From the NCBI GenBank assembly GCA_039105265.1, contig JAPFFF010000011.1:1364001-1428000 (forward strand): a stretch of 64,000 nucleotides of DNA. Direction: 5' to 3'. The notes under the pieces were generated by a model. It had not been told where the DNA came from. It saw nothing but the letters and a program-made list of their open reading frames with translations, and made no database searches. This stretch comes from Tritrichomonas musculus (Eukaryota > Parabasalia > Tritrichomonadida > Tritrichomonadidae). Both the position numbers and the translations under genes were made by a program. Shown here one piece after another: positions 7,426 to 43,270 of this stretch; position 1 is the first letter of the stretch; each line of letters begins with the position of its first letter.

Positions 7426-8670
7426 ATGTCAAAACAAGATAAAAATAATTCATCTGATAGCTTTGAATTAGATTTAAGTGGTAATATTGATAATGAAACT
7501 ATATTTGACAGTGAGGTATCTAAACCTGATGATGATGATTATGAACTAGAGGACCCGATAGATTATTTTAAGAACACATTTCTCAGTACATACAAACTAG
7601 AACACCCCAATGATTTAATTAATTTGTTGTATTTGATACAAAACAATGAATATACAGGAAGAAGTGTCGGAAAGATTCGTGAAATGAAAGTTAAGTTTCG
7701 ACGATTTGTTTCATTGATGAACAAAATCAATGCAGGTATTAAAAGCAAAGGTAATCAATTCCTTAGTTTAAGAGAGTACACAACAGATAAAAAAAGCCTT
7801 GATACAATCATCAATTACTTCAATATTGTTGTCAACGATGATTTAAATTATAGCTCTGATGGTTTTCGTTCATCACCCATCAAACCACCGAGAAAGAGTC
7901 AAACACCACAAACCACCAAAAGAAGAAGAAAGAGAACAAGCATACATGAACCAACACCTGACAGCAATAAACGAAGAACTCCGAGAAGAAAACGTATAAC
8001 TCCGAGTGATTCTGATGAATTACTGAATACAAGTTTTTTAGAGCAAGAAGATTCCTGGCCATCAATATCATTCAACTTCCCAGAATTAGAAGAAGAAGAA
8101 GAAGATAACCTATCATCCTTGTTGCTGTCTCCTTACGATCAGGTAGATGATGATATAGAATTGCTTGAGCAATTAGGCTATAACCAGCCCTGGATCAAAG
8201 TACTACCAAGATGTTATGAAGCAGCAAAGAAACCACAAAACAAACTTGATGAACAAGCGAAAGAAAACGTTGATGCATTACATCAAACACTAGAAACTAT
8301 TAGAGATAATATGAAGAGAAACATTGATATAACCAATGAACGAAAATCAATTACAGGCTTATCATCATTCTTCAGAGTGTTTGACACAATCATTAATAGA
8401 AAACCTATCAAAGGCTCTGACGTCATACAACCAATCAAACCACCATCAATCAAACCAATAACAAACAATAATAATAATAATTTTTCGAGTAATAAAATGG
8501 ATGATGATACAACATTTATTGCTAACGAGGATGATGAAACAGAACTTAATGAAACGTTTCAACAATACAATGAACGTTTAAAGAGACCTGTCAAAAAAGT
8601 TAAGTTCAATCTAATGGTCTCACTGTGGGGAAGATTTTTCCCCATGGGGGAAATCCTTGGGGAAATGTAA
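7426..8670 (+). pseudogene. Large virion-like protein, 5' part, interrupted by insertion at 8612
   Basis: Genuine coding runs from ATG 7426 to 8611; the last ~20 codons to the stop at 8670 belong to the inserted element. The N-terminus is acidic. Residues about 45-125 resemble the helical repeat near the N-terminus of the homologues at 44941 and 56196. A basic R/K-rich stretch (for example KRRRKRTS, RRTPRRKRI) and an acidic run (EEEEED) follow. The frame resumes exactly at the second target-site copy at 11289. Element C and D homologues are 823 and 1184 aa, so the uninterrupted length is in range. Function unknown; a structural role is inferred from conservation and position. Confidence 0.75.
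8603..8611. repeat. 9-bp target-site duplication, left copy
   Basis: AGTTCAATC, repeated at 11289-11297. Removing the insertion and one copy would restore one continuous reading frame between the flanking coding parts. This is direct evidence of a clean transposition event. Confidence 0.9.
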
Positions 8671-13670: not shown

Positions 13671-14021
13671 TCAATAAATTAATAAACAACTGAATATAAA
13701 TGATTCAGGTTCAATAACGTTTCCTTTCATGTCTGTGAACCATAAATGATATTCTTTCTTTGTGTTGTTCAGACATTCATATTTACGGTATTTGGTTTGT
13801 CGTCTGTTAGCAAGCATAATGAAATGGTCGCAGAAAGGCATGAATTCAACTATATCTGAATGAACCATTAAATCACCGACAATATGTTGATTGACAACAG
13901 CACCACAATACTGAACAACAATGTACTTCTTGTTGCGACTATAAACGAAATCATCAGGAAGATTAAAATCTTTTGATTGTGTGTGATAGTATCGTTTTGT
14001 GATTGGTTGTTTAGCTTTCAT
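13671..14021 (-). CDS. Conserved ~113-aa element protein (copy A)
   Basis: One of four copies (13671, 21219, 43293, 61280), always directly after integrase. Conserved: KRYFHTQ near the N-terminus, NKKYIVVQY, GDLMVHSDIVE, FIMLANRRQTKYRKYE, then WFTD-x2-GN-x-I and the C-terminus SCLLIY. The alternation of hydrophobic residues and the Gly/Asp turns suggest a small beta fold, possibly a virion component such as a minor capsid protein; this is a guess. The start overlaps the integrase stop by 11 bp, implying coordinated expression. Confidence 0.8.
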   Translation of the reverse strand: MKAKQPITKRYYHTQSKDFNLPDDFVYSRNKKYIVVQYCGAVVNQHIVGDLMVHSDIVEFMPFCDHFIMLANRRQTKYRKYECLNNTKKEYHLWFTDMKGNVIEPESFIFSCLLIY

Positions 14022-15126
14022 TTTGCGTTTTATAAGTCAAAAAGAATATTTTATAATCATCATTCAAAGCATCTATTGACGAACAAACATATTTTGTGTA
14101 CATGATTGGAACAGTTATTATTGTTTTATTCTTCAGTGTTTTGTTAGTTTGACGCAAAGGATTTAATAGTTTACATTTAACGTTTCCTGATTCATAACAA
14201 ATGAATTCAGCAAGTTCATTGAATACTCTTCTTCGCTTTTCATGTTTCTTTTCTGTTTTTCCGTAATCGGTATGAATGAGTATTATATTTTTGGGTTTAT
14301 ATGATAGAAGACCTTTAAATCGTTGTTTTTGTTGGATCTCTTTCAATTGCATTGATTTCGTTCTTATGTATTGCCATTCAAAGTCGCGATCGTCTTGCAT
14401 CTGTTGAGGTGTAAGATAAATGTATTTTGATTGTCGTTTGTCAAGGTATTCATCAGTTTCTTCATCAAATGATGTGTATAAAGGATTCAATAAACGAAGA
14501 GATGAATGAGGTGTGTTATTGTACCATGCAACCATTTGTTGTATCAATACATTGTTTGTCATTCGTTGTTGTGACTGACCGAAAGCGTTTCGTAATGTTC
14601 TGATTACTGCGTCAACACATTTATGTGCATTCGTGAAATGTGAATCATCAATGATTAACTTTATTTTGTTAGGAGCTTTGAATTTAATTGACGGTTTGTT
14701 TGATTGATATCTTTCTTCACCGTTGCAATAACTTTTGAATGCATTTGATATAAAAGCTGGTTCACCGTCACATTTAATTGTTTCAATTCTGATATTCCTT
14801 TTATTAACTAGTTTATCAATTACTTTGATTATAGTTAACTCAGTTCTGTCCGCAATCGGTTCAACAATTAAGTATTTCGTGTTTACATTGATTAGGACGA
14901 GATAAGCTTTGTTTAATGCAAACATTATATCCATTTCCCAACAATGAGGCTCAAATGAAAAATCAGGTTTTGATAGTTTCTTTACTGTTTTCAATCGGAA
15001 ATCCGGTATGTATGGCTCTGTTTTAATGTTTGTGTCTTTGATGTATTTGTATTTAGATTTGAAAGGATAATTAATTGATTCTTTGTAGCTGCGTGTACTC
15101 ACTGCATCTTCGATGTAATCATTCAT
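14011..15126 (-). CDS. Retrovirus-type (Polinton) integrase, copy A
   Basis: Catalyses strand transfer of element ends into target DNA. The rve fold shows W-E-M-D66-I-M-F, IKCD120GEPAF and HKCVD172AVIRTLRNAF. The third acidic residue is Asp where the family normally has Glu, in all four copies. The C-terminal part (KGLLSYKPKNIILIHTD, then KKHEKRRRVFNELAEFICY) fits the SH3/chromo-like DNA-binding region of Polinton integrases. No HHCC zinc finger is visible at the N-terminus. The frame is intact at 371 aa, somewhat shorter than the C copy (460 aa), which has extra residues between the second and third Asp. Confidence 0.85.
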   Translation of the reverse strand: MNDYIEDAVSTRSYKESINYPFKSKYKYIKDTNIKTEPYIPDFRLKTVKKLSKPDFSFEPHCWEMDIMFALNKAYLVLINVNTKYLIVEPIADRTELTIIKVIDKLVNKRNIRIETIKCDGEPAFISNAFKSYCNGEERYQSNKPSIKFKAPNKIKLIIDDSHFTNAHKCVDAVIRTLRNAFGQSQQRMTNNVLIQQMVAWYNNTPHSSLRLLNPLYTSFDEETDEYLDKRQSKYIYLTPQQMQDDRDFEWQYIRTKSMQLKEIQQKQRFKGLLSYKPKNIILIHTDYGKTEKKHEKRRRVFNELAEFICYESGNVKCKLLNPLRQTNKTLKNKTIITVPIMYTKYVCSSIDALNDDYKIFFLTYKTQNES

Positions 15127-23958: not shown

Positions 23959-25833
23959 TTACTGATTCACCTGTGATCCTTCTGGTGTTTCATCATCAAC
24001 ATATTCTAATCCGTTAAGTGAAAGTTTAAAGTATGTATCACGAGTTAAAAACAGCTGGGGTGGTGGTGGATGTATCGTACCTTCTTCGTTAACATTATAG
24101 TATGTATCATTAGCGCCTGTATATATTGGTTGACCATTTACTTGAACCTGAATATTGCCGAATCCACCGTCGAGACCATCATAGCAATAACCTGCAGAAG
24201 ATCTTTCTGTTTGAATATTGAATACAAATGAAGATGCATCACTTAATGTATTTCTATAGCGAACTCCATTTGCGTCATTCTTTGGCATTGTCATACTATC
24301 TTCAAATTCTTTTGTGCACTGTAATGTGATTCCATCTAAATCGCCAGCAGTTAATTGATTTTCAAAGAATCTTGCTCCTATTGTGCTAACATTTTCATCA
24401 GGAAAGTTTTTGCCACCAATATTCAAGAAGCAGTTTTGATACACAGGATTTTCAAATACAGTGAGATCATTATGATGCTTCGGAAACATGATAGACATTG
24501 TAGTCACATTAATTAATGGGATATTCAATGTTGATTTAATACCATTTGATGCAGGTGCAATAGGAAATGAATGATAATCTACTTTTTGAGACGGTATAAT
24601 GATTCCTTCACGTAATATATTTTCAATGCCTTTTCTTGTGGATTCACATACGCCGTATCCTTGCATGTTAGATTTACATAATGTGATCGTCATTCTGTTT
24701 ACAGTTAATGTAGCTTTATTTGACGAATAATGTGAGCTCAATAACTTATTAGCTTCAGTTTTAGATACAAAATTAATGGAAACATTACCTGCAGGATGCT
24801 TTGATGAAGGTAAACCACTTGGATGTTCTTTATGATAATGAGCATTACATATTACTTTATTGTCTTCTGTTTTTGCGATTCCTAATTCAGTGAATTCATC
24901 ATCTGTGTAGCTAAATAAAAAGGTAAATGTTTCAAGTAATTCATCAACAGGAATATTTGTTGAAGCAGGTGTATACTTATCTCTTAATTCATACTTCAAT
25001 TGATATTTCGTTGGTGCTGGCTCAGGAGATGGCTCAGGAGATGGATCAGGAGATGCACCTGGACCTGGTATAACAGCTTCATTACCTATTTGTGTGAATT
25101 GATGTTTAAGATGACCATGAATAGTTATTTGTTTTAGCTTTTCGAGTTCTTCTGTTGTAATGCTTTCATTGTCTTCAAGATATGCTTTCGTTTCTGCAAC
25201 AGTATATGGATCAATAGCTGCCCAAACTAATCCTGCAGGCGATATTTGAAAACGTATTGATAAATCACCTATGATGCCATTAGGGAATAAATCAAATGCT
25301 TGTAATGCTAGTAAATCATCAAATGGTACATTTAAGTCGAATTCTACTTGTGATTTACCATTAGATTTGAACGAATTAATGTAAACATATGCACCTGCTA
25401 CAGTTTGAGAATAATTGGATACATTTTCCCATAAACTGTGTACAAATCGTCTGCGTTTCTTTTCAGTTTCAGGTTTAACTGCAGAATATAAAAAGCCTTC
25501 TCTAATGCATTCATTTTGTTGGTATCCTACATTGACATTATTATGGAGTATCTCTAAGCGATCGAATAATTGATTTGACGATTTAAAGCCCACAAATAGT
25601 TTGTAGAAGTTATTTGGATCATCTATTTGTTGCAATTTAGATAAATCAGTATTAAGTTGTAAATCAAGTTTAACATGAAATGTAAGGAATCCTTTGTCAA
25701 CATCACTAATGAAATGATCAGGATGCGTTAATGATATTTGAGAATATTGTCCTTGATGAAATGGCGCAGGTTGGTCATGACAATCAACAGTTCTAAATGA
25801 GAAACTTCTAGTGCCATCATTAGTGTTAATCAT
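23959..25833 (-). pseudogene. MCP copy B, 5' end displaced by inversion
   Basis: 624 codons from ATG 25833 (internal Met in MINTNDGTRSF) to the stop, with every conserved MCP block listed for copy A and the correct C-terminus (YFKLSLNGLEYVDDETPEGS). The normal first ~26 codons (MLYRNERAHNYK...) are not upstream; they lie inverted at 26606. The internal Met could still start a protein lacking the N-terminal arm. Between FTQIGNEAVIP and NRMTITLCKSN is a ~110-residue segment starting with a PSPEPSPEP linker that differs completely from copy A and partly from copy C. The gene is otherwise undamaged. Confidence 0.8.
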
Positions 25834-26276
25834 TTCGCAATCTGATTCACAGTTGATGTAAGCTCTAATATTTTTTTATCTGATTGCTCAATTTGTTTTT
25901 GCATTTGTGGGATAACATTATCGATTCTCATATGTAGTTCATTTAGTTGATCAGCAAATAGTTTAACATCATTTTTAATCACTTCAATGTCAGCTTTAAT
26001 GATATCTTCTTGTAGTTCTTTTAGTTTATTACCTTTGAATACTTTTCTGAGATATATATCACCGCCAACTATTTTACCGGATTCCTTTAAGCAGTTCTGT
26101 TTAGTGATTTTATATTCATCGCCATCAGGAGTGATAATCTTATAGACCCTATTTAAATAGTGCGTCGTATGCTTATTCATCTCGTCCTTATGCTTCTGAT
26201 AGAACAAATTGAACTCTTCTATAGATTTAAACGTCTTTGTTTCAGCAGTTATTTCATTAATCACCTGTAGTTCCAT
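25830..26276 (-). pseudogene. 156-aa-type protein, inverted duplicate, 3' end cut at the junction
   Basis: Identical in translation to the first 148 residues of the plus-strand copy at 27021; ends after NQIAK where the inverted repeat stops (25832), and its TGA is borrowed from MCP sequence. It lacks the last 8 residues (YINDMNNV). Overlaps the MCP ATG by 4 bp. Created by the inverted duplication; expression is unknown. Confidence 0.8.
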
Positions 26277-26302
26277 TTATTTTCAAAAAAATATAATTAT
26301 GT

Positions 26303-26563
26303 TTATTTAACTTCATTTATGAGACTCTTACCGATTCGCATTCCTTTGTCTACAACATTGAGCCCTGTATCAAGAGCATTTAATGTATCGCCTATAAGTG
26401 GTATTCCTCCAAGAATAGGTCTCACAGTGCTAGTTATTTTTTTACCTACATCAACGACTTTTGGTAATGCTTTTCCTACTTTTGATGCAATATTCTTAAT
26501 GGTATTACCAACTGATTTAAAAGCGTTTTTCATTTTCTTGAATATTCCAATACCCATTTTCAT
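26303..26563 (-). CDS. 86-aa amphipathic virion-like protein, inverted duplicate
   Basis: Identical to the protein at 26734. N-terminal cationic helix MGIGIFKKMKNAFKSVGNTI, a Pro/Gly-rich middle (ILGGIPLIGDTL) and C-terminal helix. Its upstream sequence is duplicated as well, so it could be expressed. Confidence 0.8.
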   Translation of the reverse strand: MKMGIGIFKKMKNAFKSVGNTIKNIASKVGKALPKVVDVGKKITSTVRPILGGIPLIGDTLNALDTGLNVVDKGMRIGKSLINEVK

Positions 26564-26605
26564 TATTAAAAAACTCTTAAGTATTAAGCTTTTATTGTGT
26601 CATAA

Positions 26606-26713
26606 ATGTTGTATCGAAACGAAAGAGCACATAATTATAAAATTGAAGCTGGCAATGTACTTGAAACATTTAATAAGATGAGATACAACATTTATGACAC
26701 AATAAAAGCTTAA
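26606..26713 (+). pseudogene. Detached MCP N-terminus in the loop of the inverted repeat
   Basis: ATG 26606 opens with MLYRNERAHNYKIEAGN and continues through FNKMR, the start of MCP as in copies A and C, then runs into the right arm and stops at 26711-26713. It points away from the MCP body (23959-25833, minus strand). This is the piece missing from copy B. Confidence 0.85.
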
Positions 26714-26733
26714 TACTTAAGAGTTTTTTAATA

Positions 26734-26994
26734 ATGAAAATGGGTATTGGAATATTCAAGAAAATGAAAAACGCTTTTAAATCAGTTGGTAATACCATTA
26801 AGAATATTGCATCAAAAGTAGGAAAAGCATTACCAAAAGTCGTTGATGTAGGTAAAAAAATAACTAGCACTGTGAGACCTATTCTTGGAGGAATACCACT
26901 TATAGGCGATACATTAAATGCTCTTGATACAGGGCTCAATGTTGTAGACAAAGGAATGCGAATCGGTAAGAGTCTCATAAATGAAGTTAAATAA
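26734..26994 (+). CDS. 86-aa amphipathic virion-like protein (copy B)
   Basis: Original-orientation copy, followed after 26 bp by the 156-aa gene as in elements A and C. Sequence features as for 26303. Three glycines (GGIPLIG) and a conserved ALDTGLN precede the last helix GMRIGKSLINEV. A membrane-active or DNA-condensing role inside the particle is a hypothesis. Confidence 0.8.
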   Translation: MKMGIGIFKKMKNAFKSVGNTIKNIASKVGKALPKVVDVGKKITSTVRPILGGIPLIGDTLNALDTGLNVVDKGMRIGKSLINEVK

Positions 26995-27020
26995 ACATAA
27001 TTATATTTTTTTGAAAATAA

Positions 27021-27491
27021 ATGGAACTACAGGTGATTAATGAAATAACTGCTGAAACAAAGACGTTTAAATCTATAGAAGAGTTCAATTTGTTCTATCA
27101 GAAGCATAAGGACGAGATGAATAAGCATACGACGCACTATTTAAATAGGGTCTATAAGATTATCACTCCTGATGGCGATGAATATAAAATCACTAAACAG
27201 AACTGCTTAAAGGAATCCGGTAAAATAGTTGGCGGTGATATATATCTCAGAAAAGTATTCAAAGGTAATAAACTAAAAGAACTACAAGAAGATATCATTA
27301 AAGCTGACATTGAAGTGATTAAAAATGATGTTAAACTATTTGCTGATCAACTAAATGAACTACATATGAGAATCGATAATGTTATCCCACAAATGCAAAA
27401 ACAAATTGAGCAATCAGATAAAAAAATATTAGAGCTTACATCAACTGTGAATCAGATTGCGAAATACATTAATGATATGAATAATGTGTAG
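27021..27491 (+). CDS. 156-aa protein: small N-terminal domain plus coiled coil (copy B)
   Basis: Complete copy. Residues about 15-80 form a conserved domain (FKSIEEFNLFYQKHKDEM; YLNRVYKIITPDGDEYKIT; GGDIYLRKVF); residues about 90-150 are a coiled coil with regular hydrophobic spacing (IEVIKNDVKLFADQLNELH; KKILELTSTVNQI). Always encoded just after the 86-aa protein, so the two probably act together. Family unknown to me. A trimeric or tetrameric virion accessory is plausible. Confidence 0.75.
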   Translation: MELQVINEITAETKTFKSIEEFNLFYQKHKDEMNKHTTHYLNRVYKIITPDGDEYKITKQNCLKESGKIVGGDIYLRKVFKGNKLKELQEDIIKADIEVIKNDVKLFADQLNELHMRIDNVIPQMQKQIEQSDKKILELTSTVNQIAKYINDMNNV

Positions 27492-33207: not shown

Positions 33208-33447
33208 ATATTGTATCGCAACGAAAGAGCACATAATTACAAAATTGAAGCAGGAAACGTTCTTGATACATTTAATAAGATGCGTGAAATGATTAATACT
33301 AATGATGGTACACGCTCATTTTCATTCAGAACTGTTGATTGTCATGACCAACCTGCACCATTTCATCAAGGACAATATTCTCAAATCAGTTTAACGCATC
33401 CAGACCATTTCATTTCTGATGTTGATAAAGGATTCTTAACATTTCAT
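33208..33447 (+). pseudogene. MCP copy C, 5' part, start codon lost and split by insertion
   Basis: The frame reads YRNERAHNYKIEAGNVLDTF, RTVDCHDQPAPFHQGQYSQ, ISDVDKGFLTFH and is then cut at the TTTCAT target (33442-33447), which encodes the last Phe-His. Where copy B has ATG-TTG, copy C has ATA-TTG (33208), so the normal start is missing; the next Met is ~25 codons in. Reading continues into the inserted element to a stop at 33544-33546. The 3' part is at 40043-41830 in the same frame. Confidence 0.85.
33442..33447. repeat. 6-bp target-site duplication TTTCAT, left copy
   Basis: Repeated at 40043-40048. Six-base duplications are the hallmark of Polinton integration. One copy is expected in the uninterrupted MCP, as seen in copies A and B. 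Confidence 0.95.
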
Positions 33448-33884
33448 AGTAGTATAAGAATAGGGACGGCTGGTTACCTACGACTTTTTTATAGGAAACC
33501 CACCTCGGAAACCAAGCTCAAAATCAACTCTGAAAAAAATAAATAAATTAACTCTAAAATTTAGTTGCAACCATGAATTACAAAATCAATTGTAGAATCA
33601 ACTATAGAATTAATGTCAAAATCGATTCTCAGAATTTATAGGAAACATACCTCGGTAACTATGTGCTGAATCAATTGTCAGAATCAATTTCAACATTAAT
33701 TCCCAACATTATTTACAACATCAATTATCAAACTAATTAGCTCGTTATGCGAGCCAGGCAGCTACGCTGCTTTCAACATCAAATGTCAACACCAATATAC
33801 TCAAAAAATACAAATTTATTGAAAAGTGAATTCTCAACTCATTTCTCACCAATTAGCTAACTAACTGAATTATATAATTAATGA
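33448..33884. repeat. Left terminal inverted repeat of the 6.6-kb element
   Basis: The first ~75 bp are almost identical to the inverted right end; similarity then continues with small indels to about 33884. Contains hairpins GCTCG/CGAGC (33740-33754) and GCAGC/GCTGC (33758-33770), whose counterparts on the right have different arm sequences. No gene. Confidence 0.85.
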
Positions 33885-33967
33885 CAGAATTAATTATTCT
33901 AACAAAGTTCCGAATCATGTTTTCAATTTGATTATCAAAGAAATCATAATGATTTTTTTCTCATAAA

Positions 33968-36900
33968 ATGGCTTTCAACCAAAATTCATTTGCCAATTTT
34001 ACTAATAACGATATTGTTGAATTCATCAATACTATTAATCAAGGACTTAATGAAAATCTTGAAATTGCAGATACTCGTCGATATCGAGGAGGTGCTCGAT
34101 TACAAAATATAAGAACTCTGGTTAGTTATCTTAATCAACATAATGCACAACAAATTATAGACCCTAATTTTAATGATAATGATTTTCAAGAAAATCTTGA
34201 TCAATTCATAATTCATGAACAAAATCGTCGTCAATATGAACATAATTATCTAGATATCTTAAATCGTGAAACAAATAATGAAAATGAGTTGAACCAAACA
34301 TATACTCAATATTACAACAAACAACACGAATTAAAAAAATCTTATGAACGAAATTATCAAGATATCTTAAATCGTCAAGTTGTAAGTGATGATGAAACAA
34401 ATGAAGAAAATATTCAATACTTTGAACGTCAAGCTGAAATTGAAAATGCAATTAAAAGGGCTTATGAAGCAGTTGATAATGCAATTAATTTGATAAACAA
34501 ATCCAAACCAAATCTCAAGAAAATTGAACCAAAACTCATTAAAGATAAATCCCATTTACTTGAATATTATATTCCTGAAAATGAAGAATTATATGAATAT
34601 ATTGATAAATTTAATCACAAATTCGTATCGAAAAACAATGATTTCCTAATTATTAATGAACCTCATGATTTAGATAAAGCAGTTGAGGTTTGGGATTATT
34701 ATAATTCATTCCCTTCATCCAAAGTAGTTAACAGAATTGATGATAATTGTCCTATCATAACATATTATTTCAATCAAATTTCATCGTTAGATGATATTTA
34801 TGAATCATTACAAGAAGTATTTTCAAAAGAAATCAAACCATTTAAATTACATTTTCAATTATCTGGTGTATTTGAAACTCCAAAATTTGATTTTGAGAAT
34901 GATGTTGAACTATATGAATATGAAGCGAAAAATATTATTTGGAAGAATTATCGAGAATCAATTCCAACATTAATACAACTTCCTCAAGACATCGAAATTG
35001 TTAAATTATATATTGAATCAGTTCTTCATTCTTATGAAACAACTCAATCTAACACTAAATTAACAATTGTTGGTTCAATTGCTTTTACAATATCAAGAAT
35101 GATTAAAATCACTGGTAAGATTAATGGTTTACCTGATGTTTTCACCAAATCTCGTTCAATTATTGTTGATAATGTTGATGATAATTTATGTTGGTATCGT
35201 GCTGTGTCAATCTGTTTGAACCCTAAATTGATTTCTGCAACTGAGAAGAGAAGAACACAATTCGCAAAACAAATGTTATTAAAGAAATATGGAATCGAAT
35301 ATTCAAATCACATGACAAACGATGAACGTGAAAAATCAAATAAAATTCTTAATGAATTTAATGGACTTGACATATATGAAATGAAATCTGAAGCTGAAGA
35401 ACTGAAACTCAATATTAATATATATGACTATATTGAATCAATTAAGCAATATAATATTACTAATCAATGGAAATATAATGACTCAAATGATTTTCATTCA
35501 ATGCTTCTATTCTCAAAGGTTAACATTCTTCACATCATGTTTATCAAACCGGATGGTGTTGAAACTCTTACAAACATACTTATTTGTCCCAAATGTCGTT
35601 CATACTCAACTCAAAAAAAGCATAAATCATATTTATTGAAGCATATGAAATTATGTGATGGAACTTTCAAAAAGAACTTCATTCCAAACAAAGAACCACT
35701 TCCATTCTGCCCACATATACTTAACAATCCTGTTTATGAATATTGTTTGGCGCATCAATTAGAATGGAAACCTAACATTTATTATATAACTTATGATTTT
35801 GAAACAATGGAACAAGTTATTGAAGAATCAATTGGCAAATCTGTTACAATCAACTCACGTTTGATTCCTCTTTCAGTTGCTTCATGTGTTAAATCTGCTA
35901 ATGGATTAACAACAAAACATTTCGATATAAGGACTGAAAACTTCATTCCAAAATGGATTAAATGGTTGTTTGACATGTCAATTTCAATATATAACGACAA
36001 AATCAATTATACAAAATCAATTCTGAAACTTGATTCTGTCAAAGAATTACTCAAAATTGATAAAAATTTGAATGTCATAACTGTTTTCGGATTCAATTCT
36101 TCAAGATTTGATTCAAATTTATTCAAAAATTATTTCAATTATCATTTCGGAACATTAAGTTGGCACGCTACTGATTTAATTGGAACTGCTAGTTCATTAA
36201 AACAATTCATATTAACTTCACCAAATTATGAAACAAAATTACGTTTTATTGATGCTCAATCATTTGTTGCAGGAGGTACATTAAAACAATTTGGCGTTGA
36301 TTTTGGTCAAAGTGAATCATCTGTAATCTTGCATGACAATCTAAGATTGTCCTGGGTCCAAAGGGCCAAAAGCGTGAAAGGAGTGTTCCCATATGAGTCT
36401 ATCAACTCAAATAATTACAATGAAGTCTTATCGAAATCAGAACCGTTTTCATACAATGATTTCTACAGTTATCTGAATCAATCTAACCCCTTAACTAAGG
36501 ATGAATATCAAACTTACCTTGAGGATTCCAAAAATTATAAAACAAGGTGGGATTACTTACTTGCTTACAATGATAATGATGTTGAAATGATGATTAAACC
36601 TATTGATTATTTGATTGAATTAAACGCTCAATATAACGTTGATTTAATATCAAATTTATCACTTTCGAAGAATGCATCATGTATTAAATATGCTCTTGCA
36701 TACAAAGATTTTAACCCAAATGGTAATTATAATGTTATACATAATTTAACAACATTTGTTCCTGATGAACAATGGTGGAAATACAAATGCTCAAATTATT
36801 TCGATCAAGACTCAAAATATAATACAAAATTGCAAAACAAAATCAATTCTCTGTCAAAAAAATCAGTTCTGACTGATAATGAAAGAACCAAAATTGACAT

Positions 36901-38770
36901 ATGGACTTCAAAAATGAGAGATTTGTCGAAATGCATCTCTCAATCTGATTTCAAAGAGTTCATGAAACGTTATGAAAATGAGAATTTTTGTTACCTTTGT
37001 GGTGAGCATTTCACTTATCAAAACAAACCAACTCTTGATCGAATTGATAATAACATCGGTCATGAATTAAATAATTGTAAATTTGCTTGTGCTGAATGTA
37101 ATTGTTTACGTAATCGTAATGATGAATGTATAACTCGATTGAGGATTCAATTGAAGAAATTTTGTTCTGAAAATCATCTCCCAACATTAATTAACGATGA
37201 AGCTGAGTATCATTCAATCCGAAAATCAATTACAGGAGGTATTTCCAATGTACTTCATCGAATGAATCTTAGAGGAATTACTCATATAAATAAATATCGT
37301 TTCGATGCAATTCATAATAAAATTATTTCATATGATACTGAATATGTTATAACACATGTTGTTGGAATTGATTTTAATTCTCTTTACCCATCATCATTTG
37401 GATCTATCAAACATTCATTTAATAAATATCATGGTGGAATTATGTATATGCCAGGTAGGTTTCTAAATCGTTATAACGTTTATGATGAAAATGGTTTTAA
37501 AAACAACAAAATTTATGACATTTGTTACAAAATCATCACTTCAAAAACAAGATTTGACAATAAATTTCCAGATAAATTATTTTATGCAGAAGTGAAACTT
37601 GTATGCCCAAAATCGAAAATCAATTATTTCATTAATTTTCCACCTGTATTTCGGAGTATCAACATCAAAAACAATAAAGAAACAATTGGTTCTTACATGT
37701 ATGATTATATGGAATCAAATAAATTGGCTTCAATCAATAAAGAAGAACGTAAATTAACAATGCTTCTTGATACTCATGGTGAGTATATGGTTTTCTCAAA
37801 TTATTACTTGTGGTTCTTGTTGGACCATGGTTTAATAATTGAAGATATCAAATCGGTTTCAACATATGAATGTCACAATGGATTCAACAACTTCGTTACA
37901 GAATTCATGAAAAAACGTCAAAACATATTATCTGGAAAGGAATCTGGTACTGAGAAGTTTTATAAAATGTGTTTGAATGGTTCTTACGGATATGATGGAA
38001 TGAACACTGAAAAGTATTCAAAAATCAAAATTTGTGACAAAAATCAAACATATCGTGCAATAATATCTGATTCATACATGAATGGTGCAAAACTAAATGA
38101 TGACAATTATCTTGTTCAATCAAATCCGAAACATTATCGATGCACAACTTGTTTACAAGAATCACTTTGGACCCTTGATAACAGTAAGTATTGGTACTTA
38201 ACGTTTTATTATGATTTTATGAATAAATGTCTTGATATGAACCGAATTCATGTAAATACTTGTGAAACCGATTCATTCTACTTCTCTGTTGCTGGCAACC
38301 CAAATGAACCCATCAATCAAGAATTCAAATACGTAATCAAAAACAAGGAATTCTATGATAAACACATTTACGAATTCATGCCGAACCCGAATATTGGAAC
38401 AGTTGATGACACAAAAAAATTACTTGGTTGTTGTGTTGAAAAATATGGTGAAAATCAAGTTGCATTGTGCCCTAAATGTTATTCAATATGGTCTGAAAAC
38501 ATTACTAAATCAATCAAATTAAAAGGTTTGTCACTCAAAAAGAATGATATTAACAAAGATGATTACATTGATTCTATCATTAATGGTACAATCAAACTTG
38601 GAAAGAATATTAATTTACAAATGAATAACAATCAAATGAGTAAGGTAACAACCAAAAAAATTGCTGTCAATGCAACTCATACAAAAATGATAACATTATC
38701 AAATCAATCTTGTGTTCCTTTTATATTCGGATTGAGTGCAAATGATGTTGTCATTAACAATATGGACTAA
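33968..38770 (+). CDS. Protein-primed family B DNA polymerase, full length (1600 aa)
   Basis: N-terminal ~390 residues are element-specific, Asn/Tyr-rich, with imperfect repeats around QDILNR and LDILNR. Then DDNLCWYRAVSIC (about 400), the D-x-LC-x2-RA type motif seen in Polinton PolBs, and a Cys/His segment CPKCRSYS...H...C (about 535). Exonuclease: YDFETMEQ (about 607), NSSRFDSN, YNDNDVEMM. HNH-like Cys4 module with LDRIDNNIGH (about 1005-1050). Polymerase: DFNSLYPSS (about 1136), NGSYGYDG and motif C, which reads ETDS instead of DTDS (about 1436). It ends with a conserved tail (LGKNINLQMNNNQMS; HTKMITLSNQSCVPFI) that is cut off by the stop in copy A. The only complete PolB in the window. 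Confidence 0.9.
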   Translation: MAFNQNSFANFTNNDIVEFINTINQGLNENLEIADTRRYRGGARLQNIRTLVSYLNQHNAQQIIDPNFNDNDFQENLDQFIIHEQNRRQYEHNYLDILNRETNNENELNQTYTQYYNKQHELKKSYERNYQDILNRQVVSDDETNEENIQYFERQAEIENAIKRAYEAVDNAINLINKSKPNLKKIEPKLIKDKSHLLEYYIPENEELYEYIDKFNHKFVSKNNDFLIINEPHDLDKAVEVWDYYNSFPSSKVVNRIDDNCPIITYYFNQISSLDDIYESLQEVFSKEIKPFKLHFQLSGVFETPKFDFENDVELYEYEAKNIIWKNYRESIPTLIQLPQDIEIVKLYIESVLHSYETTQSNTKLTIVGSIAFTISRMIKITGKINGLPDVFTKSRSIIVDNVDDNLCWYRAVSICLNPKLISATEKRRTQFAKQMLLKKYGIEYSNHMTNDEREKSNKILNEFNGLDIYEMKSEAEELKLNINIYDYIESIKQYNITNQWKYNDSNDFHSMLLFSKVNILHIMFIKPDGVETLTNILICPKCRSYSTQKKHKSYLLKHMKLCDGTFKKNFIPNKEPLPFCPHILNNPVYEYCLAHQLEWKPNIYYITYDFETMEQVIEESIGKSVTINSRLIPLSVASCVKSANGLTTKHFDIRTENFIPKWIKWLFDMSISIYNDKINYTKSILKLDSVKELLKIDKNLNVITVFGFNSSRFDSNLFKNYFNYHFGTLSWHATDLIGTASSLKQFILTSPNYETKLRFIDAQSFVAGGTLKQFGVDFGQSESSVILHDNLRLSWVQRAKSVKGVFPYESINSNNYNEVLSKSEPFSYNDFYSYLNQSNPLTKDEYQTYLEDSKNYKTRWDYLLAYNDNDVEMMIKPIDYLIELNAQYNVDLISNLSLSKNASCIKYALAYKDFNPNGNYNVIHNLTTFVPDEQWWKYKCSNYFDQDSKYNTKLQNKINSLSKKSVLTDNERTKIDIWTSKMRDLSKCISQSDFKEFMKRYENENFCYLCGEHFTYQNKPTLDRIDNNIGHELNNCKFACAECNCLRNRNDECITRLRIQLKKFCSENHLPTLINDEAEYHSIRKSITGGISNVLHRMNLRGITHINKYRFDAIHNKIISYDTEYVITHVVGIDFNSLYPSSFGSIKHSFNKYHGGIMYMPGRFLNRYNVYDENGFKNNKIYDICYKIITSKTRFDNKFPDKLFYAEVKLVCPKSKINYFINFPPVFRSINIKNNKETIGSYMYDYMESNKLASINKEERKLTMLLDTHGEYMVFSNYYLWFLLDHGLIIEDIKSVSTYECHNGFNNFVTEFMKKRQNILSGKESGTEKFYKMCLNGSYGYDGMNTEKYSKIKICDKNQTYRAIISDSYMNGAKLNDDNYLVQSNPKHYRCTTCLQESLWTLDNSKYWYLTFYYDFMNKCLDMNRIHVNTCETDSFYFSVAGNPNEPINQEFKYVIKNKEFYDKHIYEFMPNPNIGTVDDTKKLLGCCVEKYGENQVALCPKCYSIWSENITKSIKLKGLSLKKNDINKDDYIDSIINGTIKLGKNINLQMNNNQMSKVTTKKIAVNATHTKMITLSNQSCVPFIFGLSANDVVINNMD

Positions 38771-39373
38771 TTGATTGATAACATTTGCGTGTGAATTTAA
38801 TCGTTGTTCATTTGATTCATTTTTTTGTTCAATTAATGCAATTCTGGAACAAATTTTACAAAACTTGTTAATTAATCCATTTAGTTCATTTGTGATACTT
38901 TTATTCATTTCTTGCATCTCAGAACGAAATTCATCAAATGAATCATCGAGTTTGTTTTGTCTTTGCGTAACAGTTTGTTTATTCAATTCTGCTTTAGTGG
39001 AATAAATAACAAGAATTCCGTTACGAGATGTAAATTTGTAATTCTCTAACGGGAATTGTTTGTTCAATTTCTTTGGATCCAATTTTTGGATTTCTGTATT
39101 ATCACGAATCATTTTACGTGCTGTTTGTAAATCATTTCTTTCAATTGCATCATAAAATAATTGTATAATATTAGATGAAGAATTTGTTTTTAAATCGCAA
39201 GCGAAGCTTGAGTCCACATTGTGAATGAGACCTTCGGGCTTACGCACGACGGAGTCTGTTGAGTCTTGCTTTAGCAAGTCATCTTGGTTATTATTTTCAG
39301 ATATTTGTTCAACGCTGATATTATCATCTGAGTTGTTAAATTGAGTATCTGAATCTGATGTAGAATAATCCAT
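38699..39373 (-). CDS. 224-aa protein of the PolB-only element, unknown function
   Basis: Convergent with PolB, 3' ends overlapping by 72 bp. The acidic Ser/Asp/Asn-rich N-terminus includes a segment encoded by hairpins (39198-39210 and 39265-39278); residues ~85-130 form a compact domain (IIQLFYDAIERNDLQTARKM; GILVIYSTKAELN); the C-terminal half is a coiled coil (FRSEMQEMNKSITNELNGL). As the only partner of PolB in this element it is a candidate terminal or replication accessory protein; no motif supports that directly. Confidence 0.65.
   Translation of the reverse strand: MDYSTSDSDTQFNNSDDNISVEQISENNNQDDLLKQDSTDSVVRKPEGLIHNVDSSFACDLKTNSSSNIIQLFYDAIERNDLQTARKMIRDNTEIQKLDPKKLNKQFPLENYKFTSRNGILVIYSTKAELNKQTVTQRQNKLDDSFDEFRSEMQEMNKSITNELNGLINKFCKICSRIALIEQKNESNEQRLNSHANVINQLVHIVNDNIICTQSEYKRNTRLI
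39198..39278. repeat. Hairpins inside the 224-aa gene
   Basis: CAAGC/GCTTG with loop GAA (39198-39210) and CTTGC/GCAAG with loop TTTA (39265-39278). Between them the protein reads through poorly conserved, polar sequence. Same core as the hairpins at 27517, 30096 and 31056. Confidence 0.8.
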
Positions 39374-39599
39374 TATTTGTGTTGTAATAAAAGTGCAAAA
39401 ATGATTACAATAAAATCATTATGATGTTGATTTACAATTTAAATTAATTTATGATTCATCAAATTTAATCAAATATTGTTAAAATTAATTAAAACTAATT
39501 AAGTTCTTTTATAATAATTCGATTAATTGATTCGGTACATAGTGCCTTAGGACAACTTTGTTGTCCGTTCTGTAAGCTACGTATCATCTAATTAGATTT

Positions 39600-40042
39600 G
39601 TACATCGATTATATAATTCAATAATATAATTTAATGGGTGAGCTAGTTGGTGAGAATTGAGGTGATAATTCACTTTTCAATAAATTTGTATTTTTTGAGA
39701 ATATTAGTGTTATGAATTAATGTTGTATACAACCCTTTGGGTTGTCTGGCTCGCTGCGCGATCTAATTGATTTGATAATTAGTTTGATAATTAGTTTGAT
39801 AATTAGTTTGATAATTAGTTTTTTTCAGTGTGTTATTCCTTTGTTACAAAGGGTCGTTTCCTATAAATTTTGAGAATCGATTTTGACATTGATTCTACAA
39901 TTGATTTTGTAATTCATGGTTGCAACTAAATTTTAGAGTTAATTTATTTATTTTTTTCAGAGTTGATTTTGAGCTTGGTTTCCGAGGTGGGTCTCCTATA
40001 AAAAAGTCGTAGGTAACCAGCCGTCCCTATTCTTATACTACT
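39600..40042. repeat. Right terminal inverted repeat of the 6.6-kb element
   Basis: Inverse of 33448-33884. Has hairpin ACAACCCTTTGGGTTGT (39729-39745) and an imperfect GCTCG/CGATC stem at 39749-39763, where the left repeat has other stems, and a ~4x tandem AATTAGTTTGAT (39771-39820) that is single on the left. A further stem GGACAACTTTGTTGTCC (39550-39566) lies just inside. The region 39374-40042 has no gene. Confidence 0.8.
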
Positions 40043-41830
40043 TTTCATGTCAAATTGGATTTACAATTGAATACTGATTTAGCTAAATTACAACAAATTG
40101 ATGACCCAAATAACTTCTACAAATTATTCGTCGGACTTAAATCTTCAAATCAATTATTCGACAGATTGGAAATTCTTCATAATAATGTAAATGTTGGATA
40201 TCAGCAAAACGAATATGTTCGAGAAGGATTTCTATACTCTGCTGTGAAACCAGAAACTGAAAAAAAGCGAAGACGATTTGTTCATTCACTTTGGGAAAAC
40301 GTTTCAAATTATTCACAAACTGTTGCAGGTACTTATGTTAACCTAAATTCATTCAAATCTAATGGTAAATCACAAGTTGAATTTGATTTGAACGTTCCAT
40401 TTGATGATTTACTTGCCCTTCAAGCTTTCGATTTATTCCCAAATGGAATCATAGGTGATTTATCAATTCGTTTCCAAGTAACTCCTGCAGGATTAGTTTG
40501 GGCAGCAATTGACCCTTATACTGTTGCTGAAACAAAGGCTTATCTTGAAGATAATGATTCTGTTACATCTGCTGAATTAGAACGATTGAAAGAAATTAAA
40601 GCTCGCGGTCATTTGAAACATCAATTTACACAAATTGGTAATGAAGCTATTATACCAGGACCTGGAACTCCATCTCCAGACCCATCTCCCGAACCATCTC
40701 CCGAACCATCTCCAGACCCATCTCCCGAACCAACTCCAACACCTGTTAAATACAAGATTCAATATCGAATTGGTGAACAATGGGATGAAGATGATGGAAC
40801 AGGTTATTCTGATATTCTTACTGATTTGGAATTCAATTTCAGTTACACAAAGGAAGAATTTGAAGAATTTGGACTCCAACCAGGTGCAACTGATGAAGAA
40901 ATTTGTGTTCATAATCCTGCTGTAACATTACCTCCATTAAATCATTCTGACAAGAATGGAAGATATTATGCTTGGCAAATTGTTAAAACACCAGTTGTTT
41001 CTGCTAAACAAACTCTTCAATCAATTCATGATGCTAAATTACAACTTCACAACGAAACATATTCATCACAGAAAACTACATTAACTGTAAACAGAATGAC
41101 AATCACATTATGTAAATCAAATATGCAAGGTTATGGTGTCTGTGAATCTACTAGAAGAGGAATTGAAAATATTCTCCGTGAAGGAATTATAATCCCATCC
41201 CAGAAAGTTGATTACCATTCATTCCCAATTGCTCCTGCCGCAAATGGAATTAAGTCAACATTGAATATTCCATTAATTAATGTTACAACAATGTCAATTA
41301 TGTTTCCAAAGCATCATAATGACCTCACTGTTTTCGAAAATCCAGTATATCAAAATTGTTATCTCAATATTGGAGGAAAGAACTTCCCAGATGAAAATGT
41401 TTCAACAATTGGTGCAAGATTCTTTGAGAATCAATTAACCGCTGGAGACCTTGATGCAATCGCATTACAATGCACTAAAGAATTTGAGGACTCAATGACT
41501 ATGCCAAAGAATGATGCAAACGGAGTTCGCTACAAGAATACTTTAAGTGATGCTTCTAGCTTTGTTTTCAATATTCAAACTGAACGTTCATCTGCTGGTT
41601 ATTGTTATGATGGTTTGGATGGTGGATTTGGTAACATTCAGGTTCAAGTAAATGGTCAACCAATATATACAGGACCAAATGATACATATTATAATGTTAA
41701 CGAAGAAGGTACAGTACATCCACCCCCAACACAATTATGGCTCACAAGAGATACCTATTTCAAATTAAGTTTGAATGGTTTAGAATATATTGATGATGAA
41801 TCCCCAGCTGGTTCTCAAATAAATGCATAA
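40043..41830 (+). pseudogene. MCP copy C, 3' part
   Basis: Starts with the second TTTCAT, in frame with HVKLDLQLN-type sequence, and carries all later MCP blocks: NQLFDRLEILHNNVNVGYQQ, FDLFPNGIIGDLSIRFQ, ITLCKSNMQGYGVCE, HHNDLTVFENPVYQ, GYCYDGLDGGFGN and a complete C-terminus. The variable segment after IGNEAIIPGPG begins with a longer PSPEPSPE-type linker (about 40670-40745) than copy B and has its own ~130-residue sequence. No lesion is visible in this part. Confidence 0.85.
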
Positions 41831-41887
41831 AATTGAGATTTGATTTGAGATATTTTTTTGCTTCTGAATTACCTTATTGTATTCGAA

Positions 41888-43270
41888 ATGTCAAAAACTA
41901 AATCTCTCAGAATTTATAATAAAGAATATCCTTCATTATTGAAATACCCATTCAAATCGAAATACAAATACGTTGAAACTGATTTACAACCTGTTTTCAA
42001 CACAAACATTAAAACAGAACCTTTCATACCTGATTTCAAACTCAAAGCATGTAAAAAAATGTCAAAACCAAATTTCTCAAATGAACCAGGATGTTGGGAA
42101 GCAGATTTGATGTTTGTGAATTATTATGAAGATGTTGAACATCCAATTAAACAAGAACAAATATATCTTGTTTTGATAAATGTGAATACTAGATATCTAA
42201 TTGTGGAACCAATGTCAAATAAAAGTGAAATAGCCAAAACTTTAAAACGAGTTATTGAAAAGAATCCTAAATATGACTTTCGAACCATTAAATGTGATGG
42301 TGAACCAGGATTCATTAGTTTAATAGATGAATGTATTGTATTGAAAGATAATATAAAAGTAATTCTTAAAACAGATATCTCGAATGATTTACAAGAAGCA
42401 TACAATTATAAACCTGAGCTAAGAAATCATGTTAGAAATGAAATTCTTTTAAAAACTAATTTGAAAACGTTAAAAACATTTGTGAAAAAAAGCGGATATA
42501 AAAATGTTATCAAGTCACCAATATCAAAAACTGAGTTGAAAATTGATGATATCAATGATTATTATCCAGTCAAATTTGTAATTAATTCTTCACCTTACGC
42601 TCTCGCTCATAAAAATGTTGATTCTGTAATTAGAACTCTTAGAAATGCCTTCGGATTAGATGAAAGAAGAATTGCTGATTATAATCTCATGAGACAAATG
42701 GTGAACTTCTATAATAACACTCCTCACAATTCATTGAGATTTCGGAACTATGATTATAATGAAGATGAATTATCTGAATATCAAGGTTCTGGATTGATTC
42801 CTCCAACTAAATGGATTTATTATTCTCCAGTTCAAGTTCAAAACAATGTTGATTTGGAATGGAGGTATATTCGAATGATGAAATTGAAATTGAGAAAGAT
42901 AAATGACAAACAGAAATTGAAAGGCTTGCTTAATTACAAACGTGGAAACATTATTTTGATACATCTTGATAAAGGTAAGACTCAAAAAAAGCATGAAAAA
43001 CGACGTCGTGTATTTGATGATATAGCTGAATTCATATGTTATCAAAACGGTAATGTTAAATGTAGATTGCTAAATCAATATCACACATTCAGTAAAACAA
43101 AGGATGGTTTAGTCCCATACGAGAAATCTGAGAAAGGTAGAATTGCCAAAACTGATGATGAGAAAGCAATTATTGAAGTCCCAATAATTTACACGAAATA
43201 TGTTTGTGATTCTATCGAAGACTTGAACGATGATTATAAACAGTATTTCATATTAAATGTTGACAAATGA
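41888..43270 (+). CDS. Polinton integrase, copy C (intact)
   Basis: 460 aa from ATG 41888. Catalytic acids in WEADLMF, IKCDGEPGF and HKNVDSVIRTLRNAF (Asp in the usual Glu place). An ~80-residue insertion between the second and third acid, relative to copy A, includes KLKIDDINDYYPVKFVINSS. The C-terminal region KGLLNYKRGNIILIHLDKG, then EKRRRVFDDIAEFICYQNGN is intact, unlike copy B. Could act in trans on any of the related termini. Leader of 57 bp after the MCP stop. Confidence 0.85.
   Translation: MSKTKSLRIYNKEYPSLLKYPFKSKYKYVETDLQPVFNTNIKTEPFIPDFKLKACKKMSKPNFSNEPGCWEADLMFVNYYEDVEHPIKQEQIYLVLINVNTRYLIVEPMSNKSEIAKTLKRVIEKNPKYDFRTIKCDGEPGFISLIDECIVLKDNIKVILKTDISNDLQEAYNYKPELRNHVRNEILLKTNLKTLKTFVKKSGYKNVIKSPISKTELKIDDINDYYPVKFVINSSPYALAHKNVDSVIRTLRNAFGLDERRIADYNLMRQMVNFYNNTPHNSLRFRNYDYNEDELSEYQGSGLIPPTKWIYYSPVQVQNNVDLEWRYIRMMKLKLRKINDKQKLKGLLNYKRGNIILIHLDKGKTQKKHEKRRRVFDDIAEFICYQNGNVKCRLLNQYHTFSKTKDGLVPYEKSEKGRIAKTDDEKAIIEVPIIYTKYVCDSIEDLNDDYKQYFILNVDK

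Follow-up and report, generated by a model that had tools for sequence, protein, structure and literature searches.

Small Polinton-ended elements of Tritrichomonas musculus that carry a polymerase and no detected integrase

The stretch of DNA analysed here (the window; 64,000 nt, C11:1364001-1428000, on contig JAPFFF010000011.1) belongs to the genome assembly of the parabasalid Tritrichomonas musculus (GCA_039105265.1; 193 Mb, 746 contigs), which was searched for relatives. At 33448-40042 the window holds a 6,595-bp element with AGTAGT at its left tip and ACTACT at its right end (40042). It carries a gene for a family B DNA polymerase (PolB) and, convergent with PolB and overlapping its 3' end, a gene for a 224-aa protein (p224). 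Both were taken from a list of all open reading frames (ORFs) of at least 120 aa, and they confirm the original prediction, made from the letters of the window, of an uninterrupted 1600-codon polymerase accompanied by one other gene. The predicted clean insertion into the major capsid protein (MCP) gene of a larger Polinton, with a 6-bp TTTCAT duplication, was also borne out. The host MCP is interrupted in frame after codon 53 (left piece ...FLTFH, right piece FHVKLDL...), with TTTCAT on both sides, and a relative, L019, preserves the empty site, where the MCP is uninterrupted (...FLTFHVKLDL...), TTTCAT occurs once (8546-8551) and the flanks are 98-99% identical to those of the window over 800 nt each side. 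The terminal inverted repeats (TIRs) have the AGTAGT start and the extent foreseen, about 0.43 kb (435 and 427 nt), but their inner part has diverged, identity being 99% over the outer 154 nt and 82% overall. An AG-type TIR tip is a trait of Polintons/Mavericks.

The existence of further copies had been proposed as a test of this prediction, and such copies are present. A 30-nt tip pattern, allowing up to three mismatches over the 193 Mb, gave 17 matches, and the reversed pattern, used as a control, gave none. These tips make up ten copies of a family designated F1: seven with two tips (the window, C22, C17a, C1, C19a, C19b and C17b) and three in which only one tip matches (C8, C15 and C51, coverage of the last extending 9.1 kb from its tip). 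With the complete TIR as query there were 24 matches, all within the ten copies except one on C12 (45 nt of inner TIR); the TIRs of other copies measure 525 nt at 100% identity (C17a), 485 nt at 99% (C1), 611 nt at 98% (C19a) and 297 nt at 88% (C22). PolB is intact in five copies (1589-1631 aa), and C1, C8, C15 and C51 are broken. In the intact copies PolB and p224 are the only ORFs of at least 100 aa. C17b (24 kb) and C19b (29 kb) are long because a Polinton carrying integrase and MCP is nested inside them, either within PolB (duplication GACCAT) or within the right TIR (duplication TTAGTT). With the nested Polintons set aside, the F1 loci gave no match to an integrase of their own in the stretches covered (no genome-wide integrase search was made), so that the RVE-type integrase, a hallmark of Polintons/Mavericks, was not detected in them; inside intact F1 copies there was likewise no match to MCP or the other named Polinton ORFs of the window, protease and ATPase not being searched for as such. 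None of the 17 tips was found to belong to an element with an integrase of its own; such a tip would have spoken for a one-off deletion. The pairing of PolB with the 224-aa gene recurs as expected, but the expectation that each copy would have its own 6-bp duplication does not hold, since the duplication is direct in two of the seven two-ended F1 copies. L008 (5161-5166) and L009 show an F1 PolB interrupted by a Polinton whose tip is AGAGAGTAAGGGGGACC and whose subterminal GGGGACCGTCTGG resembles the F1 variant GGGGACGTCTGG.

A Pfam search of the window PolB gave no meaningful match; its identity as a protein-primed family B polymerase comes from relatives, some of which carry PF03175, and from exonuclease and polymerase motifs (Table 1). 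Fold searches of the predicted polymerase domains returned an OTU match and a weaker match for a terminal-protein (TP)-like fold, and both domains are described for Polinton polymerases in the accessible text of PMC11071308. Motif C is ETDS in every one of the 13 small-element copies that span this position (eight F1, and four and one from the families F2 and F3 introduced below) and in metagenomic P0004; of the other Polinton polymerases read from the genome, six of six have DTDS; among 70 protein relatives, 49 have DTDS, one has ETDS and 20 have no motif match. No relative was found in IMG/VR. For intact ORFs, which restricts the analysis to five of the ten F1 copies, dN/dS of PolB is 0.18-0.31 in 10/10 F1 pairs and 0.20-0.21 between F1 and F2 (dS about 1.5), and that of p224 is 0.12-0.57 across 10 F1 pairs. 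Judged by these ratios, the intact F1 polymerases are under purifying selection.

Table 1. Features of the window element and of the Polinton into which it is inserted (window coordinates)
Feature	Coordinates	Strand	Basis or remark
Left target-site duplication, TTTCAT	33442..33447		read directly; single copy at L019 8546-8551
Right target-site duplication, TTTCAT	40043..40048		read directly
Left TIR, tip AGTAGTATAAGAATAGGGACGG	33448..33882	+	alignment with right TIR
Right TIR	39616..40042	-	alignment with left TIR
PolB	33968..38770	+	open frame, 1600 aa
Predicted terminal-protein-like domain, residues ~260-378	34745..35101	+	Y-family little-finger-like fold, weak match
Predicted vOTU protease domain, residues ~387-537	35126..35578	+	C408, H522 conserved
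3'-5' exonuclease motifs Exo I to Exo III	35783..36595	+
HNH/endonuclease-VII-like insert between exonuclease and motif A (palm)	36986..37114	+
Motif C, CETDSFY	38261..38281	+	Glu replacing first Asp
p224	38699..39373	-	224 aa
Host Polinton MCP, 5' piece	33289..33447	+	53 codons
Host Polinton MCP, 3' piece	40043..41830	+
Host Polinton integrase, candidate kind of helper enzyme	41858..43270	+	blastp 42% to ORF 14011-15126

Searching the genome with p224 (150 of 529 candidates scored; 146 of the 149 p224-like matches entered the analysis, after removal of three second fragments of a single gene) revealed F2, a family of about 6.0 kb with tip AGTAGTGATATTTTGGGG in which PolB lies beside a p224 homologue. 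It was covered in four loci (L012, L013, L014 and L018), and its polymerase is intact at C2 (1553 aa; duplication CACGGT). A third family, F3, also has PolB beside a p224 homologue; its tips, AGTAGTGTATAGGTGG, form 3.7- and 5.7-kb pairs with duplications TAGGGC and CTGGAA, and in the one locus covered, L015, the polymerase is broken. The other F2 and F3 copies were placed by their p224 matches. AGTAGT tips occur in both families. PolB is thus under purifying selection in a family that has two counterparts with PolB and a p224 homologue, and therefore, as had been proposed, we are dealing with a class rather than with a lone deletion. Trees lend mixed support to a single origin of the ETDS polymerases. 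The first tree (71 rows, with P0064, P0065 and the nearest full-length polymerases left out) joins F1 and F2 at 98, and one of 33 chosen rows with the 307-aa F3 piece does so at 96/98; in the latter, P0004 pairs with F3, and a single clade of small-element polymerases is rejected for that reason (p-AU 0.0008). With the F3 piece left out (27 chosen rows, with F1, F2 and P0004), a single clade is not rejected (p-AU 0.41) and appears in only 38% of bootstrap trees, the F1+F2 fork not being resolved.

These data bear on the notion that the small elements are internal deletion derivatives, i.e. full-length Polintons that lost integrase and capsid genes and persist as fossils copied passively by helpers. 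Such an origin would fit the broken copies (four of F1, and F3 in L015) and the position of PolB, which adjoins the TIR in other Polintons (L027, L028) just as it does in the small elements. It seems unlikely, however, given purifying selection on both PolB and p224, the ETDS motif common to F1-F3, the F1+F2 clade of the 33-row tree (though not of the 27-row one), and the full-length Polinton stretches read, in which no p224 domain was found apart from one weak coiled-coil match.

One F2 copy, at C19:1899209-1929858 (L014, L045), is flanked on both sides by inverted pieces of another Polinton's TIRs. Its flanks are exactly inverted (30/30 nt; 94% over 325 nt) and in a genome search give paired plus/minus matches about 21-23 kb apart, an arrangement that suggests recombination between TIRs. 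A Kalilo-type insertion was considered for this copy and dropped once the flanks proved to be the TIRs of another Polinton.

An element without PolB shows how ends may be shared with integrase-bearing partners. The F4 copy at C30, the one covered in full, is 4.4 kb long, has the duplication ATGCCT and encodes a p224 homologue and an HNH_3 protein. Its tip has 137 genome matches; the 100 on which pairing rests pair as 13 short elements (<9 kb), 18 of 20-30 kb and 8 other. Among the matches listed, a p224-like match lies in 9 of the 13 short pairs and in none of the 18 long ones (Fisher p 3.5e-5), and in one of the 8 others, a 179-kb span holding an F3 copy. Short F4 elements have a 28-nt tip common to 23-26-kb elements, one of which, C19:1905065-1929695 (partly covered), holds MCP (80%), integrase (98% over 165 aa) and a DTDS polymerase; an integrase-bearing partner with the F4 tip therefore exists. 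For F4 the ends match those of larger elements over the whole 28-nt tip, integrase being seen in the one checked; for F1 a match to integrase-bearing ends extends only over the outer 9-10 nt, the nearest such ends sharing only AGTAGTATA(T).

Structure prediction gives p224 a low-confidence N-terminal segment of ~65 aa, an HHHHEE domain (66-125) and one helix of ~96 residues; our guess is that it may be a dimeric DNA-binding protein. Its homologues accompany short elements whether or not these have PolB, and are absent from the long pairs examined, which speaks against a function linked only to the polymerase. Might p224, or the HNH insert of PolB, provide integration and render the small elements autonomous? 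The intact copies of F1 and F2 that were examined have both, p224 homologues go with short elements, and the F4 copy combines one with its separate HNH_3 protein. We nevertheless hold autonomy to be highly improbable: p224 is predicted to be a small domain plus one long helix and is without significant matches, the 6-bp duplication has the same length as in long F4-type elements, and the HNH insert is shared by other Polinton polymerases of the genome and by most metagenomic relatives aligned, for which reason it was rejected as an integration enzyme specific to small elements. A phrog_1035 match to the insert was obtained for the F2 polymerase only. The p224 domain also occurs in a palindrome with 1.2-kb arms (L025, C21:1074800-1077600) that carries a 90-aa p224-domain ORF and a 206-aa ORF. 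At least seven palindrome-type p224 pairs, ~1.4 kb apart, are among the matches listed. The observation extends to L011 6253-7544, and a stretch related to the palindrome lies next to the broken PolB of C8 (F1).

Exact 6-bp duplications flank all ten long F4-type elements tested (of 18) and all five short ones tested (of 13), whereas the duplication is direct in only 5 of 16 two-ended PolB-bearing small copies (F1 2/7, F2 1/3, F3 2/6); Fisher's test gives p 6.8e-5 for 5/16 against 15/15, a comparison chosen after the data were seen and leaving out one-ended copies. The 11 copies without a direct duplication raise the possibility that spread is independent of integrase, with PolB-made linear copies entering the genome by recombination or end capture. 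Flanks that seem to have been swapped point the same way. F1 copies C19a (C19:2320313-2327187) and C19b (C19:2536367-2565410), about 209 kb apart, have exchanged flanks (L004, L005, L006), sharing GACCTT at one end and, in reverse complement, TGCGCT at the opposite end, a pattern that inversion between inverted copies, or misassembly, can explain. The left flanks of F3 copies C19a and C56 share CACGAC; alternatively, F3 C19a could have a decayed duplication, because one of the six bases is not the same on its two sides. Yet re-pairing the swapped flanks restores the GACCTT, TGCGCT and CACGAC duplications, five copies have exact duplications (chance 1/4096 each), the window copy has a clean empty site, and the inverted flanks of the F2 copy on C19 are the TIRs of another Polinton. 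We therefore regard integrase-independent spread as improbable. Exchanged flanks can explain some of the missing duplications; the rest could reflect recombination between copies, assembly error or another entry route. The flanks of the C17a F1 copy are the ends of two different repeats.

The window element is, then, one of ten copies of an integrase-less Polinton family in which intact polymerases are under selection; it probably copies itself by protein priming and would borrow the integrase of full-length Polintons. Self-copying by PolB and the supply of integrase in trans are what we infer from the findings above. PolB would prime at the TIR ends and make linear DNA copies, the primer being supplied by its own predicted TP domain because TP and vOTU domains are predicted ahead of the exonuclease and palm. 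The integrase of a full-length Polinton would recognise the AGTAGT ends and insert the copy with a 6-bp stagger, and p224 may bind the ends or recruit the integrase for short elements. Insertions that hit the MCP gene, or others, of full-length Polintons can disable individual copies of potential helpers. More tentatively, and with somewhat less than even confidence, the small elements may form a long-lived satellite lineage in which an ETDS polymerase primes itself and p224 steers a borrowed integrase, parasitising and disabling full-length Polintons, as a tier between linear plasmids and virus-like transposons. The original prediction of a hitchhiker that makes its own DNA copy with a borrowed integrase is, as a whole, partly supported.

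Several points weigh against the reading of a self-copying, integrase-borrowing element. The scarcity of direct duplications is one, and the tips of F1, F2 or F3 were not found on any full-length Polinton (no genome-wide integrase search having been made). The Glu in motif C could reduce polymerase activity. A fold search with p224 gave no significant match; a Polinton ORF to the right of the window element has a weak match to the p224 profile (E 0.0003, coiled-coil part only), and 4 of the 13 short F4-type pairs are without a p224-like match among those listed. The shares of F4 tips and p224 candidates covered, and the confinement of dN/dS to intact ORFs, limit the reading as well.

As regards the rest of the window, ORF 14011-15126, to which the host integrase was compared, has an rve match (E 3e-7) just below the Pfam cut-off. 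The window also contains several Polintons and a match to DUF3839, a domain typical of Trichomonas. A perfect inverted repeat of 784 nt (25832-26615 and 26682-27465, with a 66-nt spacer) lies just upstream of the MCP ORF 23959-25833.

On the usual view, Polintons combine replication with integration, and a family that keeps replication only would be a natural split of the two, in which integrase sharing is testable with defined ends. Like full-length Polintons/Mavericks, the small elements have AGTAGT-tipped TIRs, a 6-bp duplication and a protein-primed PolB with the predicted TP-vOTU-exonuclease-palm layout; they differ in their size of 6-7 kb, the extra p224 and the ETDS motif C, and no integrase, MCP or other Polinton gene was found in them. 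Short non-autonomous DNA transposons share their ends with a full-length partner, a pattern that F4 fits through tips common to 23-26-kb elements, whereas F1-F3 retain a polymerase gene (selected in F1) and have end sequences of their own. As for PolB-only Polintons, the literature searched (PMC3511435, PMC10120064, PMC11071308, PMC7845603 and PMC3671162, in their accessible text; subscription literature lay mostly outside) contained no description. The nearest published case there is that of the family B2 (Polinton-type) polymerase genes of Entamoeba histolytica, for which the authors found no integrase and suspected assembly error or gene loss (PMC3511435). The accessible text describes no ends for those genes, whereas here the elements are complete, having ends, further copies and another gene besides PolB. 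Transpovirons and virophages are likewise small elements that rely on larger genetic parasites (PMC3671162, accessible text), but no capsid gene was found in intact copies of ours, and the presumed partner is a Polinton rather than a giant virus. Transpovirons are further marked by a superfamily 1 helicase and an association with mimiviruses. p224 could serve as a candidate marker of such integrase-less Polinton satellites.

Cytoplasmic and mitochondrial linear plasmids, too, are reduced to a protein-priming polymerase and a few genes, and the small elements resemble them in having a predicted TP (weak)-vOTU-exonuclease-palm polymerase and no morphogenetic genes that we could find. Two Neurospora plasmid polymerases are without Asp-Thr-Asp, according to the title of reference 54 in PMC11071308. 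Linear plasmids are extrachromosomal linear DNA with a terminal protein, whereas all copies of the small elements in the assembly are integrated; these have Polinton tips and, in some cases, 6-bp duplications, and their closest sequence relatives are Polinton-type polymerases, in trees that held no plasmid polymerases. They may represent a stage through which linear plasmids could have arisen from Polintons.

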